From Sphingomonas jejuensis (GTDB lineage: Bacteria > Pseudomonadota > Alphaproteobacteria > Sphingomonadales > Sphingomonadaceae): DNA of 64,000 nt. The notes under the pieces were generated by a model. That model saw nothing but the letters and a program-made list of their open reading frames with translations, was not told where the DNA came from and did not search any database. A program made the position numbers and the translations under genes. Location of the stretch: the NCBI RefSeq assembly GCF_011927695.1, contig NZ_JAATJE010000001.1, positions 806,001-870,000 on the forward strand, given 5' to 3'. This document shows positions 36,634-43,705 of the stretch, one piece after another; position 1 is the stretch's first letter, and the number at the start of each line of letters is the position of its first letter.

Positions 36634-37401
36634 ATGCCGAAGGACGGGGCCACGGGGCCGAGCAGGATCTGGCTGGTTCGCCACGGCGAGAGCGCCGGCA
36701 ACGTCGCCCGCGACCGCGCGCACGAGAGCGGGCTCGACCGCATCGATCTGGCCGCACGCGACGTCGACATCCCCTTGTCGCCGCTCGGCGAGGATCAGGC
36801 CGCCGCACTCGGCGCCCATGTGGCGCGGGCGAATGCGGAGGACCGGCCGGAGGTCATCCTCGTCTCCCCCTATCGCCGTGCCCTCCAGACCGCCGGCCGC
36901 ATCACGGGCGCGTTGGATGGCGGGAGCGACCTCCCGCTCCGCATCGACGAACGACTGCGGGAGAAGGAGTTCGGCATCCTCGACGGGCTGACCACGCGCG
37001 GCGTCACTGCCGTCTACCCTGAACAGGCGGAGTTCCGGCGGCTGCTCGGCAAATTCTACCACCGGCCGCCGGGCGGGGAGAGCTGGTGCGACGTGATCTT
37101 CCGCCTGCGCTCGCTCCTGGACACGGTCGCCATCCGTCACGCCGACCAGCGCGTCATGATCGTCGCGCATCAGGTCGTGGTCCTGTGCATGCGCTACATC
37201 ATCGAGGAGCTGACGGAAGACGAGATCCTCGCGATCGATGCCGAGGGCGACGTCGCCAACTGCTCGGTCACTGAATACCGCCGTGATCCGGCCGGCGGCG
37301 GGCTCCGGCTGGTCCGCTACAACGCCACCGACCACCTGGAGCGCGCGGCCGATGCGGAGGTCACGGCGGAGCCCGACCGCGCCGGGGGGATCCGCGGATG
37401 A
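36634..37401 (+). CDS. Histidine phosphatase family protein
   Basis: A 255-aa member of the phosphoglycerate-mutase-like branch 1 histidine phosphatases. The catalytic histidine motif LVRHGESAGN lies at about residues 14-23, the second arginine motif in LVSPYRRALQTA, the acid/base EKEFGILDG at about 110, and the second histidine in MIVAHQVVVLCMRYI. The substrate is not evident; the family ranges from sugar phosphates to nucleotides. The stop overlaps the NAD(P)HX dehydratase ATG by 4 nt, so the two are co-translated, which may point to a role near nucleotide-cofactor metabolism. Confidence 0.88.
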   Translation: MPKDGATGPSRIWLVRHGESAGNVARDRAHESGLDRIDLAARDVDIPLSPLGEDQAAALGAHVARANAEDRPEVILVSPYRRALQTAGRITGALDGGSDLPLRIDERLREKEFGILDGLTTRGVTAVYPEQAEFRRLLGKFYHRPPGGESWCDVIFRLRSLLDTVAIRHADQRVMIVAHQVVVLCMRYIIEELTEDEILAIDAEGDVANCSVTEYRRDPAGGGLRLVRYNATDHLERAADAEVTAEPDRAGGIRG

Positions 37402-38279
37402 GCCGGGACGCGACCGCCATCGACAGCGGCTGGATTGCTGCCAATCCCGCGCCCGTCCACAAGGTCGGCACCACCAAGAACAGTCGCGGCCGTGTGCTCG
37501 CGGTTGGTGGATCGCGGATGGTGCCGGGCGCCCTGCGGCTGACGGGTGAGGCGGCGTTGCGCGTCGGCGCGGGCAAGCTGCAGATGGCGACCGTCCGCTC
37601 GGTCGCGCTGATGCTCGGCCTGCTGGTTCCGGAAGGCGGTTCGATCGGCCTGCCCGAGGATGATGGCGGCGAACTTGCCGATCCGGGCGATGCACTCGTG
37701 TCGGCGCTCAACAGCTGCGACGCCGTGGTGGTGGGCCCGGGCATCGGTGATCCAGCCGCCGCTGCCCGGGCAACCGAAGCGGTCCTCCGGTGCGCCGAAT
37801 CCGAAGCCCTGCTGGTCGTCGATGCGCTTTCGATCGCGGCGCTGCGGGACCGTGCGGAGGCGCTCAAACCCTTCGCCGGCCGGTTGCTGATCACCCCGCA
37901 TCATGGCGAGATGGCGGCGCTGACCGGCGCGGAGGTGGACGCCATTGCCGCCGATCCGGCCAGCCATGCGCGGACGGTGGCGCGAACCTACGGCGCCGTG
38001 GTCGTCCTGAAGGGCAGCGACACCATGGTGGCGGCGCCCGACGGCGCGCTGCTCCACTATGGCGGCGGCGGCACGGGGCTGGCGACGGGCGGGTCGGGCG
38101 ACGTGCTGGCGGGCGCGATCGCCGGGCTGCTGTCGCGCGGCGCCAGCCCGCTGATCGCGGCCGGCTGGGGCGTGTGGCTGCATGGGCAGAGCGGCCGCCG
38201 CGTCGCGACCACCTGCGGCCCGATCGGCTTCCTGGCGCGCGAAGTTCCGGCCGAGTTTCCGAAGCTGCTGCCGCAATAA
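37398..38279 (+). CDS. nnrD: ADP/ATP-dependent NAD(P)H-hydrate dehydratase (NnrD domain only)
   Basis: Repairs hydrated NADH/NADPH by ATP- or ADP-dependent dehydration. The 293-aa product is a ribokinase-fold YjeF C-terminal domain with TKNSRGRVLAVGGSRMVPGA near the start, VVGPGIGDPAA, LLITPHHGEMAALTG and the nucleotide signature GLATGGSGDVLAGAIAGLL. The N-terminal epimerase domain (NnrE), often fused, is absent, so an epimerase gene would have to be elsewhere. It is translationally coupled to the histidine phosphatase. Confidence 0.93.
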   Translation: MSRDATAIDSGWIAANPAPVHKVGTTKNSRGRVLAVGGSRMVPGALRLTGEAALRVGAGKLQMATVRSVALMLGLLVPEGGSIGLPEDDGGELADPGDALVSALNSCDAVVVGPGIGDPAAAARATEAVLRCAESEALLVVDALSIAALRDRAEALKPFAGRLLITPHHGEMAALTGAEVDAIAADPASHARTVARTYGAVVVLKGSDTMVAAPDGALLHYGGGGTGLATGGSGDVLAGAIAGLLSRGASPLIAAGWGVWLHGQSGRRVATTCGPIGFLAREVPAEFPKLLPQ

Positions 38280-38357: not shown

Positions 38358-39665
38358 ATGCAGGGCGGCATGAGGCCCAGAACCGCGGACCCCGCCAACG
38401 TCGCCGTCGCCATCCCGGTGAAGAACGAGGAAGCGGCGATCGGCGCCTGTCTCGCCGCCCTCGACCAGGCGGCATCGCGCCATCCCGGCCGTACCACCAT
38501 CGTCGCGGTCGCCAACGACTGCGACGATCGCACGGTGGAGATCCTGTCGGCCGCGCGGCCCGCCCATGCGCGCCTGATCTGGACGGCCGTGTCGCTGCTG
38601 CCGGGCCACCGCCATGCCGGCTGGGCGCGGCGACTTGCCTTTGACGCCGCGGCCGCGGTTCTCAGCCATGAGGACGACCTGCTGCTGTCCACCGATGCCG
38701 ACACGGAGGTGGACGGGGCATGGATCGTCCGCAACGCCGCCCATCTCGGTCGCGGCATCGATGCGGTCGCCGGTCGCGCGCTGACCCGGCGGGCGGAGCG
38801 CAAGGCGCTGGGCGGGCAGGCGTTCGACCGGCTCAACATGCTCGGCCGCTATTACGGCCTCGCCGACTACCTCCGCACGGCAGGCGACGCGCACGAGACG
38901 GAGGGCTGGCCACGCCATTTCTACGAAGGTGGCGCCAGCATCGCGCTCCGCCTCGGCATGTACCGCGCGATCGGCGGCGCGCCGACGCCGCCGGTGGCGG
39001 AGGACCGCGCGCTGTTCGACCGCATACGGGCGCATGGCGGCAACGTAGTGCATCCGATCGACGTGCGCGTGTTCACGTCCTGCCGGCTGGATGGTCGCGC
39101 GCCCGGCGGCATGGCCGATACCTTCCGGACTTGGATCGCGCAGGGTGAGGACGATCCGCTGCACGAGACATACCGGATGGCGGCGGCACTGGCGCCGCAC
39201 TGGGCGCTGCCGGGCGACCGGCTGTCGTTCCGCACCCTTCCAGCCGCGGTGAAGGAGGCGCAGGCGCTGCTGAAGGCCACACGCCGCGGCGCGTCAGCTC
39301 CGGCGCCAGAGGTCGAGCCGGTACGCTTCCCGCCGGTCATGGTGAAGCGGCCCGACACGCTCGCCCAAACTCTCGCGGAGCAGCTCGACCGCGTCATCCC
39401 CGCTCAGCGGGTAGTCGGTCAGCCCGGTCCAGTGGACCAGCAGGATGTCGCCGCCGGGCCGAACGGCATCGGCCACATAGTCCGCCATCCGCCGGACATC
39501 GTCCGCATCCCAGTAATAGACGACCTCGGACAGGAGCATGAGGTCGAAGCGGCCGGCGGGCTGGTCGGCCGGGAGCTGGCGGCGCTCGAACCGGACCTGC
39601 TCGAGACCGGCGCAGCGCGCGCGCGCCGCCGCCAGCGCGGTCTCCGAGACGTCCACGGCCAATAG
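38358..39665 (+). CDS. Family 2 glycosyltransferase with antisense-derived C-terminal extension
   Basis: A GT-A fold family 2 glycosyltransferase. Motifs are VAVAIPVKNEEAAIGACLAA (N-terminus), VAVANDCDDRTVEIL, LLLSTDADTEVDGAW (DxD-like TDADTE) and PPVAEDRALFDR. The normal domain ends near residue 310. From about residue 313 to the stop (435) the frame runs antisense through the convergent methyltransferase gene (372 nt), giving non-conserved residues. It probably forms a functional set with the methyltransferase, PIG-L deacetylase and acyl-CoA dehydrogenase on the opposite strand. The starts at 38358 and 38370 (ATG) are equally possible. Acceptor and donor sugars are unknown. Confidence 0.8.
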   Translation: MQGGMRPRTADPANVAVAIPVKNEEAAIGACLAALDQAASRHPGRTTIVAVANDCDDRTVEILSAARPAHARLIWTAVSLLPGHRHAGWARRLAFDAAAAVLSHEDDLLLSTDADTEVDGAWIVRNAAHLGRGIDAVAGRALTRRAERKALGGQAFDRLNMLGRYYGLADYLRTAGDAHETEGWPRHFYEGGASIALRLGMYRAIGGAPTPPVAEDRALFDRIRAHGGNVVHPIDVRVFTSCRLDGRAPGGMADTFRTWIAQGEDDPLHETYRMAAALAPHWALPGDRLSFRTLPAAVKEAQALLKATRRGASAPAPEVEPVRFPPVMVKRPDTLAQTLAEQLDRVIPAQRVVGQPGPVDQQDVAAGPNGIGHIVRHPPDIVRIPVIDDLGQEHEVEAAGGLVGRELAALEPDLLETGAARARRRQRGLRDVHGQ

Positions 39666-39875
39666 GTCGCGACACAGCGGCGCCAGCCGCCGGGTCAGCA
39701 CGCCGTTGGCGCATCCGACCTCGAGCGCGGCGGCATAGTCCGTGCGAGGCAGGGCGGCGATCGTGTGATCGTACTTGGCGGCCTCGTAGTCGCTCGTTTC
39801 GAAGTCCCAGGGGTCGCCCTTCTCCCTGAACAGCGCCTCGAAATAGTCAGGGTCGATCGATCGTTCGCGGCGCAT
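39294..39875 (-). CDS. NodS-like SAM-dependent methyltransferase
   Basis: A 193-aa class I methyltransferase. Motif I is ALEVGCANGVLTRRLAP (about residues 49-65), motif II LLAVDVSETALAAAR, and motif IV DLMLLSEVVYYW. The N-terminal YFEALFREKGDPWDFETSDY is typical of the NodS group, whose founder N-methylates deacetylated chitooligosaccharides in Nod-factor synthesis. It overlaps the PIG-L deacetylase by 29 nt, so it is co-translated with it, and overlaps the convergent glycosyltransferase by 372 nt. The real acceptor is unknown; a deacetylated amino sugar is a reasonable inference. Confidence 0.87.
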   Translation of the reverse strand: MRRERSIDPDYFEALFREKGDPWDFETSDYEAAKYDHTIAALPRTDYAAALEVGCANGVLTRRLAPLCRDLLAVDVSETALAAARARCAGLEQVRFERRQLPADQPAGRFDLMLLSEVVYYWDADDVRRMADYVADAVRPGGDILLVHWTGLTDYPLSGDDAVELLRESLGERVGPLHHDRREAYRLDLWRRS

Positions 39876-40608
39876 GGCGAGGCTCCAGAAGCAGGGTGAC
39901 GGGCTGGTCGACGAGCCGACGCATCGACCGCGGCAGGCAGAACGCCTCGCCTCCCAGGATGCGCCCGCCCAGTTGCGATCGATGGAGGTTCAGCGCGCGC
40001 CGTTGGCGAGCGCGTGTCGCATGCGTGTCGATCCGGCGGACACGGGCCGGGCCGACCGCAGCCGCCAGGTCGTCCTGCGTCCATCCCCAGACGAGGTAAT
40101 GGAACAGGTGGGTCTCGGCGGCGCGGGACACCTCGGCGGCCAGCGTCGCCGCGCCTTCATGGTCGCAATGCGGCTCACCCGGCCAGGTCACCGCGATCCG
40201 CCCGATCCGGTGGCGGCGGCAGACCGCGACCAGGCGCCGGACGGTGCGCTTGAACGCGGCTGTGTCCGTTGCGTGCGGTGCCGCATCGCCCCAGCCAAGC
40301 TGGAGGGCAGCGACCGACGCGCCAAGCGCGCGAAGTGCCTGGCGGGCCTCCGCACGACGCAGGGCCGCGATCCGGCGCCGCGTCCATCCGGGCGCACCGA
40401 CATGCGATCCGCTGCCGTCGGTCAGGAAGGCGACGATGGGCGGCGCGCCGTCCTTGCACAGCCGCGCGATCAGGCCGCCGGCACCCAGCGTTTCGTCGTC
40501 GGGATGCGGCACGATGATCAGCCATCGTCGCTGTCGCCGATCTCCGGGGGGAAGCGGCGTCGACCGGGCGAGCAGCCTGCGCCGCGCGGTCCAGCCCGGC
40601 GCTACCAC
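39847..40608 (-). CDS. PIG-L family deacetylase
   Basis: A 253-aa zinc-dependent N-deacetylase (LmbE/PIG-L fold), of the type acting on N-acetylglucosamine conjugates. The zinc motif PHPDDETLGAGGL is near residues 26-38 and the second ligand is in EPHCDHEGAATLA. The GTG at 40608 (7 nt inside the end of the acyl-CoA dehydrogenase gene) is the preferred start, with TTG at 40611 possible. The 3' end overlaps the methyltransferase start by 29 nt. Together with that gene it suggests deacetylation followed by methylation of an amino sugar. Confidence 0.88.
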   Translation of the reverse strand: MVAPGWTARRRLLARSTPLPPGDRRQRRWLIIVPHPDDETLGAGGLIARLCKDGAPPIVAFLTDGSGSHVGAPGWTRRRIAALRRAEARQALRALGASVAALQLGWGDAAPHATDTAAFKRTVRRLVAVCRRHRIGRIAVTWPGEPHCDHEGAATLAAEVSRAAETHLFHYLVWGWTQDDLAAAVGPARVRRIDTHATRARQRRALNLHRSQLGGRILGGEAFCLPRSMRRLVDQPVTLLLEPRHAPRTIDRP

Positions 40609-41714
40609 CAACCGCGCTCGCCCCAATGATCGTGATCGATCCAGGCGGCGGCTGCGCGGTCCCGCGCCTGGTCCGGAACCGGCTGGCGCAGGTAGAGGCC
40701 GAGGTCGCGGGTGATGCGGTCGATCCGGCTGTCCTCGAAAAAGGACGCTGTGCCGACCGCGCGCGCAGCGCCCTCCATCGTGGCGAGCGCGGCGTCCTCC
40801 ACGATCCCGCGCGTCATCAGGACAAGCGGGATGGCATCGGCGGTGCGTGCCTCCGCGGCCTTCGCGGCGCGGCGGACCCACTGGGCGGCGGACCTCGTGG
40901 CGGCCACGCTGTGCCCGAAGCGGAGGCGCTGCACCGGGTCGTCTCGCTTGCCCGTCTGCACAAGGTGGTCGCGCCAGTGCCGCAGCAGCGCCTGCGCCGC
41001 GCCCTGCTGCACGCAGGCAAAGCGCCATGCTCCGGCCGTGAACATCGGCTCGCGCTCGTAATCGCCGGGCCCACCGATCAGTGCATCGGGCGCCAGCGCG
41101 ACGTCCTCGAAGTCGAACCGTCCGCTGACCGTCCCCTTCATGCCGCGCACGCGCCAGCCTCGATTGTCGGCGCGGTCCGGCGTCGCGCCGATGTCCACCA
41201 GCACCAACTGCTTGATGCCGTCGTCCCGGCGCGCGGTGATCAGCGCCCGGTCGATATGCCCGCCGCCCGTCGCGAACGACTTGGCACCGGCCAGCCGCAG
41301 GCCGCTTCTTTCGTGTGTCACCAGCCGGACGCCGTCGGCATGGTCGGTGTTCCACACGCCAAAGCACCGACCGGCGGCAAGATGGCGATGCAGCGCCGCG
41401 CGCTGTGCATCGTCGCCATAGGTGTGGACGAGCTGCACCGCATTCACATGCCCTTCGAACACGCGGCCAAGGCTCAGGTCCGCGCCGCCGATCGCTGTCA
41501 GTGCGTCAGCCAGTGCGTCGACCGCTGCCTCGTCGGTCAGCACGACGAACTGGTCGAGCCCGCCGATTGCCGCCAGGCTGGCAAGCGGGCCGGCGGGAAA
41601 GGCCTCCGGCGGGTTGCTGCGGTCCCATTCGTGGATCAGCCGATCCAGCGCCTCCTGGAAGCCTCCGTCGTCTCGGTGGCGCGGCGCGGGATCACGCAGG
41701 TCGGGATCGGTCAT
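40602..41714 (-). CDS. Acyl-CoA dehydrogenase-like protein
   Basis: A 370-aa protein (from the ATG at 41714; an ATG at 41750 is possible) with acyl-CoA dehydrogenase fold features: an all-helical start, a middle beta region with CFGVWNTD and GLRLAGAKSFATGGGHIDRALI, WRVRGMKGTVSGRFDFEDVAL, and a helical C-terminal domain (FACVQQGAAQALLRHW). The first gene of the operon, it overlaps the PIG-L gene by 7 nt. I cannot identify the catalytic base with confidence, so dehydrogenase or monooxygenase-like activity stays open. In this cassette it may act on an acyl chain or an amine. Confidence 0.8.
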   Translation of the reverse strand: MTDPDLRDPAPRHRDDGGFQEALDRLIHEWDRSNPPEAFPAGPLASLAAIGGLDQFVVLTDEAAVDALADALTAIGGADLSLGRVFEGHVNAVQLVHTYGDDAQRAALHRHLAAGRCFGVWNTDHADGVRLVTHERSGLRLAGAKSFATGGGHIDRALITARRDDGIKQLVLVDIGATPDRADNRGWRVRGMKGTVSGRFDFEDVALAPDALIGGPGDYEREPMFTAGAWRFACVQQGAAQALLRHWRDHLVQTGKRDDPVQRLRFGHSVAATRSAAQWVRRAAKAAEARTADAIPLVLMTRGIVEDAALATMEGAARAVGTASFFEDSRIDRITRDLGLYLRQPVPDQARDRAAAAWIDHDHWGERGWW

Positions 41715-41911
41715 CAAGGATTCCGGGATCGGTTGCAGGGCGGCTGCCATCCCGTCAGGTGCGGCAAGCCCGTCAACGCATCAACCGGAAAGTCGCGCCG
41801 CGTTCTCGCGTAGTTGCCTCGCGCACGGCATGTTGTAACGGAACTCACCCATGCACGCTCGAAGGGCCACTCGTTGAAGATCGCGCCGCCGGGGCCCCGC
41901 CAGGAGCGCAC

Positions 41912-42625
41912 ATGGTGACCGGATGGGCCGTCCCCGTCCTGTTCGGCATCGCCGCCAGCCTGGCCACGTTGCTGGGCGGCGTGCTTGCGCTCAGCCTGTC
42001 TGCGCGGATGACGGCGCTGCTGGCCGTGGCGGCAGGGATCGTGCTGGGCGTCGCCTTCCTCGACCTGCTGCCCGAAGCGCTGGAGCATGGCAGAGGGCTC
42101 TATGACGCGCGGACCATCCTCGCCTTCGCGGCGGGAGGTATGGCGGCCTATCTGCTGCTCGCGCGCGTGCTCGCGGGGCTGGAGCGCTTCGGATCGCTCC
42201 GGGCGCACCTCGCCCCGGCAAGCCTGACGCTCCACAGCCTGATGGACGGGCTGGCGATGGGCCTCGCCTTTCAGATCGCCCCCGGCATCGGCTGGATGGT
42301 GGCGGTGGGCGTGCTGACCCACGACATCGCCGACGGGCTCAACACGGTCAGCCTGGCGCTGGAGGCGACCCGCCGGCGCACCGCGCTCCGCTGGCTGGCG
42401 CTGAACGGGGCGGCACCGCTGACGGGGGTGCTGATCGGGCTCGCGGTGTCCTTGCCCGATGCGGCGCTCGCCCCTGCGATGGCGCTGTTCGCCGGCATGT
42501 TCGTCTATATCGGCGCCGTGGAACTCGTTCCGCGCTGTCTTGCGCGCGACGAGCGGCTGCGGACGCCGGTGCAGGTGCTGTGCGGCATGGGGCTGATGCT
42601 CGCCGTGACGATGCTGGGCGACTAG
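41912..42625 (+). CDS. ZIP family divalent metal transporter
   Basis: A 237-aa inner-membrane protein with about eight helices. Metal-site motifs are in helix 4 (TLHSLMDGLAMGLAF) and helix 5 (VLTHDIADGLNTVSLALE). It resembles ZupT/GufA-like zinc and iron uptake proteins. The ATG at 41912 follows CAGGAG. It is divergent from the acyl-CoA dehydrogenase gene (197 bp between starts). The cupin gene starts 54 nt later on the same strand. TGTTGTAAC at 41831 is at most a weak Zur half-site and I do not rely on it. Confidence 0.88.
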   Translation: MVTGWAVPVLFGIAASLATLLGGVLALSLSARMTALLAVAAGIVLGVAFLDLLPEALEHGRGLYDARTILAFAAGGMAAYLLLARVLAGLERFGSLRAHLAPASLTLHSLMDGLAMGLAFQIAPGIGWMVAVGVLTHDIADGLNTVSLALEATRRRTALRWLALNGAAPLTGVLIGLAVSLPDAALAPAMALFAGMFVYIGAVELVPRCLARDERLRTPVQVLCGMGLMLAVTMLGD

Positions 42626-42679: not shown

Positions 42680-43705
42680 ATGGCCGACGCCGCGCCCAGG
42701 ATGATGCCGGAATGGCGCGGAACGACGCGCGCCGCCTTCGATGCGGAGGTCGTGGCGGCGGGTCGACCCGCCGTTCTGCGCGGCATCGTGTCCGACTGGC
42801 CGGCGGTCGCAGCGGCGCGCCGGTCGCCGCAGGCGCTTGCCGACTATCTGCTTCGCTTCGACCGCGGCGATCCCGTGGTCGCGGCGGTCGGCCCGCCCGA
42901 CATCGCCGGTCGCTTCTTCTACAACGACAGCCTCGACGGCTTCAATTTTCGTCGGCAGCCCGCGCGGCTGAAGGACGTGCTCGGCTTCCTTGTTGCGCGG
43001 GACGGGCAGGAAGGTGCGCCGGCGCTTGCCGTGCAGTCGGTGCCGGCGCGCGCCCACCTCGCCGGCTTTGCCGAGGACAACCCGATGCCGCTCCTGCCGC
43101 CATCGGCGGAGCCGCGGCTGTGGATCGGCAATCGCGTGACCGTCGCGGCCCATTATGATCCCAGCGAGAACATCGCCTGCGTGGTGGCGGGCACGCGCCG
43201 CTTCACGCTGTTTCCGCCCGACCAGATCGGCAACCTCTACATGGGCCCGATGGAGCGGACGCCGGCCGGCACCACGATCAGCCTGGTCGATTTCGATGCA
43301 CCCGACCTCCAGCGCTTCCCGCGTTTTGCAGAGGCAATGGAGCATGCGCTTGTCGCCGACCTCGAACCCGGCGATGCCATCTACATCCCCTACATGTGGT
43401 GGCACCACGTGCGCTCGCTCCAAAGCGTCAACATGCTGGTCAACTATTGGTGGACCCCGCCGGCACCGGCCGGCGCCCATCCGCTCGATGCGCTGCTCCA
43501 CGCCATGCTCGCCATCCGCGCGCTGCCGGAGCGTCACCGCCAGGCGTGGCGTGCGCACTTCGACCATTATGTGTTCGGCGCGGGTCCGGCGGCGGGCGAC
43601 CATCTGCCGGACGCCGTTCGCGGCGTGCTCGGCCCGCTCGACGCGCAGAAGGCAGAGCAGCTGGCGCAGCTGATCATGAAGGGGCTCCGCGGCCAGCAGG
43701 ACTGA
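42680..43705 (+). CDS. Cupin-like (cupin_8/JmjC) domain protein
   Basis: A 341-aa protein of the cupin_8 family, related to JmjC and factor-inhibiting-HIF 2-oxoglutarate/Fe(II) oxygenases. VTVAAHYDPSENIACVVAGT supplies the H-x-D/E pair, GDAIYIPYMWWHHVRSL the distal histidine, and FYNDSLDGFNF a family block. A GTG at 42656 would lengthen it by 8 residues; I prefer the ATG at 42680. Homologues include hydroxylases of proteins and uncharacterised bacterial enzymes, and the target is unknown. It may share a transcript with the ZIP transporter, which would fit an Fe enzyme next to a metal importer. Confidence 0.82.
   Translation: MADAAPRMMPEWRGTTRAAFDAEVVAAGRPAVLRGIVSDWPAVAAARRSPQALADYLLRFDRGDPVVAAVGPPDIAGRFFYNDSLDGFNFRRQPARLKDVLGFLVARDGQEGAPALAVQSVPARAHLAGFAEDNPMPLLPPSAEPRLWIGNRVTVAAHYDPSENIACVVAGTRRFTLFPPDQIGNLYMGPMERTPAGTTISLVDFDAPDLQRFPRFAEAMEHALVADLEPGDAIYIPYMWWHHVRSLQSVNMLVNYWWTPPAPAGAHPLDALLHAMLAIRALPERHRQAWRAHFDHYVFGAGPAAGDHLPDAVRGVLGPLDAQKAEQLAQLIMKGLRGQQD

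Follow-up and report, generated by a model that had tools for sequence, protein, structure and literature searches.

A conserved four-enzyme cassette in Sphingomonas jejuensis that may build an N-methylated, oxidised amino-sugar conjugate

Mycothiol and bacillithiol are made by transfer of GlcNAc followed by de-N-acetylation by a PIG-L enzyme. The Nod-factor pathway combines a family 2 glycosyltransferase (GT2), a de-N-acetylation and the methyltransferase NodS, and its glycosyltransferase, NodC, is a membrane-bound processive enzyme with a QxxRW motif. N-methylation of Nod factors comes after de-N-acetylation (PMC5080398, in excerpt). Here we describe a locus on 64,000 nucleotides of Sphingomonas jejuensis DNA (NZ_JAATJE010000001.1, positions 806,001 to 870,000; "the window", with positions counted from its first letter) that encodes a GT2, a PIG-L deacetylase, a NodS-related S-adenosylmethionine (SAM)-dependent methyltransferase (MT) and a flavoprotein of the acyl-CoA dehydrogenase (ACAD) fold. 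These genes form a real, conserved four-enzyme cassette. We tentatively propose, as a reading that is quite possible if short of probable, that the cassette builds an N-methylated, flavin-oxidised amino-sugar conjugate, in many hosts probably for survival of drying or oxidative stress.

Like the Nod-factor pathway, the cassette joins a GT2, a de-N-acetylation and a NodS-related methyltransferase. Its glycosyltransferase, however, is soluble and mostly without QxxRW, its deacetylase is a PIG-L enzyme whereas NodB is a CE4 polysaccharide deacetylase, its MT falls below the NodS cut-off, and it adds an ACAD-fold flavoprotein. An initial annotation, made from the letters alone, had suggested Nod-factor-like chemistry. 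Sugar transfer, de-N-acetylation and N-methylation are plausible, and among characterised relatives of the MT, NodS is the nearest; NodC features, a CE4 deacetylase and a NodS-level score are absent, and an acyl role is not supported. Judging from the encoded proteins, the cassette is plausibly Nod-like in logic, yet is not a Nod pathway. Trifunctional proteins from Gloeothece, a cyanobacterium, and Sulfitobacter (L186, 5955-9431; L190, 6393-9473) have PF00535, NodS and Polysacc_deac_1 domains on a single polypeptide. They too combine a GT2, a NodS-type MT, related to that of the window, and a deacetylase. Unlike the cassette, they are single fused chains with a CE4-type deacetylase, and an ACAD-like partner was not found in the stretch. 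We found no description of the four-gene cassette in the open-access PMC literature, in agreement with the initial annotation, which knew of no described product.

The gene for the GT2, a soluble GT-A glycosyltransferase, lies on the plus strand (38358-39665; PF00535, 27.5 bits, cut-off 23.3). The minus strand encodes the MT (39294-39875; PF05401 NodS, 67.1 bits, cut-off 24), a PIG-L (LmbE) zinc-type de-N-acetylase with a GTG start (39847-40608; PF02585, 81.3 bits, cut-off 28.2; motifs PHPDDE and HCDH) and the ACAD-fold, monooxygenase-like flavoprotein (40602-41750), identified from its AlphaFold model and PDB profile matches and with relatives annotated as acyl-CoA dehydrogenase. A second ATG at 41714, the start chosen in the initial annotation, is an alternative for the last gene. 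All four genes lie where they had been placed, with the PIG-L motifs intact. The minus-strand genes overlap by 7 bp (ACAD/PIG-L) and 29 bp (PIG-L/MT), which fits the translationally coupled operon proposed earlier.

A scan of genome contigs with one degenerate motif identified 497 stretches encoding a relative of the ACAD-like protein, and the best 80 were kept as named loci. We searched the fetched loci with four family profiles based on 25 loci. The non-redundant set (<80% ACAD identity) comprises 91 loci, of which 86 entered via the ACAD-like protein or as the window itself and 5, all plasmid records, via the MT. All four genes lie within 6 kb in 80 of these 91 loci; the corresponding counts are 20/20 for the order loci, 73/80 for the named loci and 15/20 for further loci. 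In the order survey, the full set is present at 27 of 28 matches (20 at 18 kb, the window, and 6 in short loci). The exception, L029, has 28% identity and is probably an ordinary ACAD. As a control, the host genome encodes 11 further PF00441 ACADs, and PIG-L genes are absent from the 5 kb around each of them.

Gene content is kept through rearrangement: seven gene orders occur among the 80 complete loci. The commonest is GT2-ACAD-PIG-L-MT (50 loci), followed by the arrangement of the window, ACAD-PIG-L-MT with a convergent GT2 (16), and ACAD-PIG-L-MT-GT2 (10); four orders occur once each. Pairwise distance matrices of the four proteins are correlated (rho 0.70-0.80, n=80; maximum of 200 permutations 0.24), in part due to shared species ancestry. 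Relatives of the ACAD-like protein were detected in 26/296 genomes of the order, 6/337 of the class and, with profile A1, 22/398 of the phylum; the order and class draws share some genomes, and because few candidates were scored in each genome the counts may be too low. The initial annotation had tied its proposal to co-occurrence, and the linkage of the four families indeed extends well beyond close relatives.

Cassette relatives are found in Alpha-, Beta- and Gammaproteobacteria, Deinococcus, one Nostoc and one Kitasatospora. Plasmid-collection records, some of them chromosome-sized, contributed Deinococcus, Nostoc, Kitasatospora, Acinetobacter, Cupriavidus and Pandoraea, as well as Bradyrhizobium, Sulfitobacter, Paracoccus and Komagataeibacter. 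The whole cassette is also present in an Acinetobacter baumannii record (L247). In ten fresh plasmid loci, hand-picked from 40 listed matches, the ACAD, PIG-L and MT genes are consecutive in all ten and a glycosyltransferase gene lies before or after them in nine. Deviations from the full set include two Methylobacterium loci with the ACAD-like gene and none of the other three (L132, and L161 on a 67-kb plasmid), a Paraburkholderia locus with only MT and glycosyltransferase (L191), a Roseomonas locus where no glycosyltransferase is annotated (L251), and Deinococcus radiodurans (L159), where no GT2 was recognised nearby and a helicase gene lies between the MT and PIG-L genes. An ACAD-like relative was not found on viral contigs, and ACAD and MT occur in only two phage records (232 and 305 kb), both named Acinetobacter phage.

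Some members of the cassette are fused. PIG-L and the MT form a single 419-aa protein in L051, the kind of fusion that the initial annotation had mentioned as present in databases, and the MT and ACAD-like protein form one of 556 aa in L050. In two Deinococcus loci (L159 and L160) a ~400-aa N-terminal domain is fused to the ACAD-like protein; it resembles a family-1 glycosylhydrolase, the product of the adjacent gene in L160, and Pfam at 0.001 found no domain in it. The S. jejuensis genome (2.96 Mb) encodes a second cassette, in the order GT2-ACAD-PIG-L-MT, on contig C3 (L032, 1915-5178). This copy has diverged from that of the window (34% ACAD identity) and adjoins catalase (PF00199) and zinc alcohol dehydrogenase genes. 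The closest named relatives of the ACAD-like protein of the window are from Sphingomonas.

The GT2 has DxD (D113, D115) and ED (E215, D216) motifs that are invariant in 53 aligned members. Its AlphaFold model (mean predicted local distance difference test score, pLDDT, 88) has a GT-A fold with WrtF as the best fold match (Z 21.9); the folded core spans approximately residues 1-311, after which model confidence drops. A NodC-like polymerase is not supported: none of 84 relatives has a hydrophobic segment (19 residues with mean hydropathy >1.8), and QxxRW occurs in only 4 of the 84.

The 435-aa GT2 frame converges on the MT gene, and its last 372 bp (39294-39665) are antisense to that gene. Overlaps of the two reading frames, of 58-435 bp, occur in 15 of 19 convergent loci (including L033, L034, L056, L057 and L160). 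Tail-to-tail overlaps of 34-95 bp are present in annotated Deinococcus, Komagataeibacter and Jiella loci. The antisense overlap is thus unusual in length and recurs across loci.

The PIG-L residues H49, D51, D52, H161, D163 and H164 (numbered by the aligned stretch) are invariant in 84/84 members. In Pfam the protein matches only PF02585 PIG-L, not CE4, and its closest solved relatives in the PDB are diacetylchitobiose deacetylases. A PIG-L enzyme of the Pseudomonas syringae lipopolysaccharide core is encoded among other core genes, in a paper whose main text lacks the term acyl-CoA (PMC8005017, in excerpt). The PIG-L of the cassette is plausibly a de-N-acetylase of an N-acetylhexosamine conjugate, as predicted from its matches. 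The cassette MT scores 72.4 bits against NCBIfam NodS (NF041650), below the curated cut-off of 300. Its sole PDB matches below 1e-10 are 4isc (6e-27) and NodS 3ofj (2e-13), and alignment with the latter reveals shared DPW and EVxYY motifs; residues D21, P22, E31, P102 and Y120 are invariant in 25 aligned members.

ACADs use a catalytic glutamate as base, with a position in helix G as the alternative. Alignment of 23 ACAD-like members places P, A, S or H in the glutamate column in every one; the column was set by two true ACADs of the host genome (the 2 of 9 comparison proteins that were usable, in frame with the YEG motif), and the helix-G alternative position is unfixed. The match to PF00441 is borderline (20.3 bits in one run and 22.9 in another; cut-off 22.4). 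In a PDB search with the single sequence, DszC comes top and the short-chain ACAD entry 7p98 second, whereas the top five in a profile search are three DszC entries, TdsC and MsuC (best 1.6e-21). Next come two entries that bear the name "acyl-CoA dehydrogenase type 2 domain protein", of which one is titled flavin-containing monooxygenase, and then ACADs. The profile also matches 4kcf, a KijD3 entry, and 3m9v, which we take to be KijD3 as well, at about 2e-9 (4kcf 2.3e-9), below many ACADs. In a fold search with the AlphaFold model (mean pLDDT 88), the DszC-type group occupies ranks 1-9 but lies within 1 Z of ACADs, with DszC at Z 36.1, and MsuC and human short-chain ACAD each at 35.3. By profile, DszC, TdsC and MsuC are the nearest solved relatives, and they share the fold, as do KijD3 and DnmZ, but the cassette protein is distinguished by the motifs R-[LV]-x-E-[GSA]-H and DLxxYxRQ. 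Precedents for oxygenation within this fold include the glycoside N-oxygenases KijD3 and DnmZ (PMC5481743, in excerpt), and AlnG is an ACAD-annotated candidate for N-hydroxylation (PMC7347517, in excerpt). On the evidence of these alignments, the acyl-CoA dehydrogenase label is doubtful for this family, and the fatty-acyl role envisaged in the initial annotation is not supported.

The initial annotation missed the stress-gene context of the relatives, which is invisible at the window itself. We counted families within 10 kb of the ACAD gene, using bit thresholds fixed before the count: catalase (KatE type), DUF892 or DUF2383, DUF421, SRPBCC (polyketide cyclase-like), LigD, Ku, OtsA, OtsB, GlgX-like, DtpC-like and CsbD. 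At least one occurs in 20 of 40 cassette neighbourhoods (39 genomes) and in none of 40 control neighbourhoods (33 of the same genomes), a contrast inflated by post hoc choice of the families from the same loci; close relatives also share islands. By family, cassette and control counts are 11 and 0 for DUF892/DUF2383, 8 and 0 for catalase, 6 and 0 for SRPBCC, and 5 and 0 for DUF421; zinc alcohol dehydrogenase, counted separately, gave 11 and 1. Across the non-redundant set, 44/91 loci have at least one stress family, and such genes lie near five of eight loci of a divergent subgroup outside the class of the window (L176-L183). A Pfam tally of the 150 nearest neighbour genes (184 families, from 56 loci without a GT4/GT28 pair) against 148 control genes revealed no dominant family; DUF892 accounts for 4, DUF421 for 3, and catalase and GT20 for 2 each. 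PepSY-associated transmembrane and HSP70-family proteins each occur three times among the 150 and are outside the 25 families listed for the control genes.

A related stress locus is described from Acinetobacter, where dtpC lies directly upstream of katE in a desiccation operon (PMC13232832, in excerpt). An Acinetobacter johnsonii plasmid island has, in order, genes for a catalase, DUF421, an iron-containing redox enzyme (PF14518), ACAD-PIG-L-MT-GT, a major facilitator superfamily (MFS) transporter, otsA and otsB. We infer that the redox enzyme is DtpC because it shares 54% identity with an A. baumannii protein whose gene immediately precedes that of a catalase, as in dtpC-katE. The island would then join the cassette with catalase, a DtpC-like protein and OtsA/OtsB. 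Matches to the redox gene (at least 96.6%) occur on 11 Acinetobacter plasmids, counted here as one island. In the one A. baumannii record checked (L247) the cassette lies ~1 Mb from the dtpC-like gene, and the terms glycosyl, deacetylase and acyl-CoA are absent from the main text of the dtpC-katE paper (PMC13232832). Part of the cassette family is likely to have a role in stress.

From these data we would infer the sugar, step order, oxidation chemistry, acceptor and physiological role as follows. The GT2 would add one N-acetylated hexosamine (GlcNAc is assumed) to an acceptor, PIG-L would strip the acetyl group from the transferred sugar, and the NodS-like MT would methylate the freed amine. 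This order is the natural reading, given that N-methylation follows de-N-acetylation in Nod factors. The ACAD-fold flavoprotein may oxidise the amino-sugar product, by N- or C-oxygenation, rather than an acyl-CoA; of all the steps, we are least sure of this one. For many hosts, the conjugate would probably serve survival of drying or oxidative stress.

Several observations weigh against this proposal. Eleven of the 91 non-redundant loci are incomplete, although two of the seven incomplete named loci (L074 and L125) are short contigs. The MT could also methylate an O or S atom, given how many class I methyltransferases exist besides NodS. The fold of the ACAD-like protein ties with true dehydrogenases, and no flavin reductase turned up in the cassette, where no search was aimed at one. 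The stress link carries the bias of post hoc selection noted above, and no tested stress gene lies within 10 kb of the copy in the window. A listed family is present in only 1 of the 10 fresh plasmid loci (catalase in L254, also with treZ), or in 3 if a general stress protein (L253) and the pairing of a Mn-catalase with a universal stress protein (L250) are counted. EcfG-type promoters precede 4/74 cassette units and 2/210 control units; a general link to these promoters was dropped as too weak.

The strongest competing explanation, which we regard as unlikely but worth serious attention, is that the cassette decorates one residue of a surface or secreted oligosaccharide, with only an indirect link to stress. 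GT4 and GT28-C-like genes accompany the cassette in 34/91 loci and a second GT2 in 37, and two Deinococcus loci also encode UDP-galactopyranose mutase and another glycosyltransferase. However, the GT4/GT28 pair is missing from 57/91 loci; among the neighbour genes tallied above, flippases, polymerases and ABC exporters are not in the 25 commonest families, and MFS transporters number 4/150 compared with 2/148 in controls.

Rather less probable is an acylated amino-sugar lipid, as the initial annotation suggested, in which the ACAD-like enzyme would desaturate or prepare an acyl chain for attachment to the exposed amine. The fold itself, its tie with true ACADs and the public annotation of most relatives are consistent with this. 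The replaced glutamate (with the helix-G alternative unfixed) and the profile similarity to monooxygenases argue against it, and acyltransferases are not among the 25 commonest neighbour families. A low-molecular-weight redox cofactor, made as mycothiol and bacillithiol are and then methylated and oxidised, seems improbable. Those modules share a glycosyltransferase and PIG-L with the cassette, catalase genes are neighbours, and the best NCBIfam scores of PIG-L are for BshB2 and BshB1 (51.6 and 50.1 bits), but these are far under the cut-offs (195.25 and 182.5). The cassette, moreover, has an MT and a flavoprotein, and a thiol ligase is not among its four constant genes; no search for BshC- or MshC-like genes was made outside it. 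Passive co-inheritance of unrelated enzymes on a mobile island would account for the patchy distribution, plasmid copies and two host copies, and is very improbable because content is conserved under rearrangement, with fusions and correlated divergence (to which shared ancestry contributes) also speaking against it.

Around the cassette in the window are genes for an NAD(P)H-hydrate dehydratase-like protein (37398-38279), a ZIP transporter (41912-42625) and a cupin_8 protein (42680-43705); no link between these and the cassette is evident.

That the cassette keeps its gene set while its order is shuffled and its hosts range widely implies a real and useful product. The analysis also draws attention to a family annotated as acyl-CoA dehydrogenase although the catalytic residue that defines such enzymes is missing. 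More speculatively, and with little expectation that every part holds, the product may be an N-methyl, N-oxygenated amino sugar of the hydroxylamine or nitrone type that scavenges radicals, a new and widely shared protective metabolite that is made by desiccation and oxidative-stress islands from Deinococcus to Acinetobacter and works alongside catalase, DtpC and trehalose. If the product is a stress protectant, desiccation tolerance would gain a metabolite alongside trehalose, catalase and DtpC.

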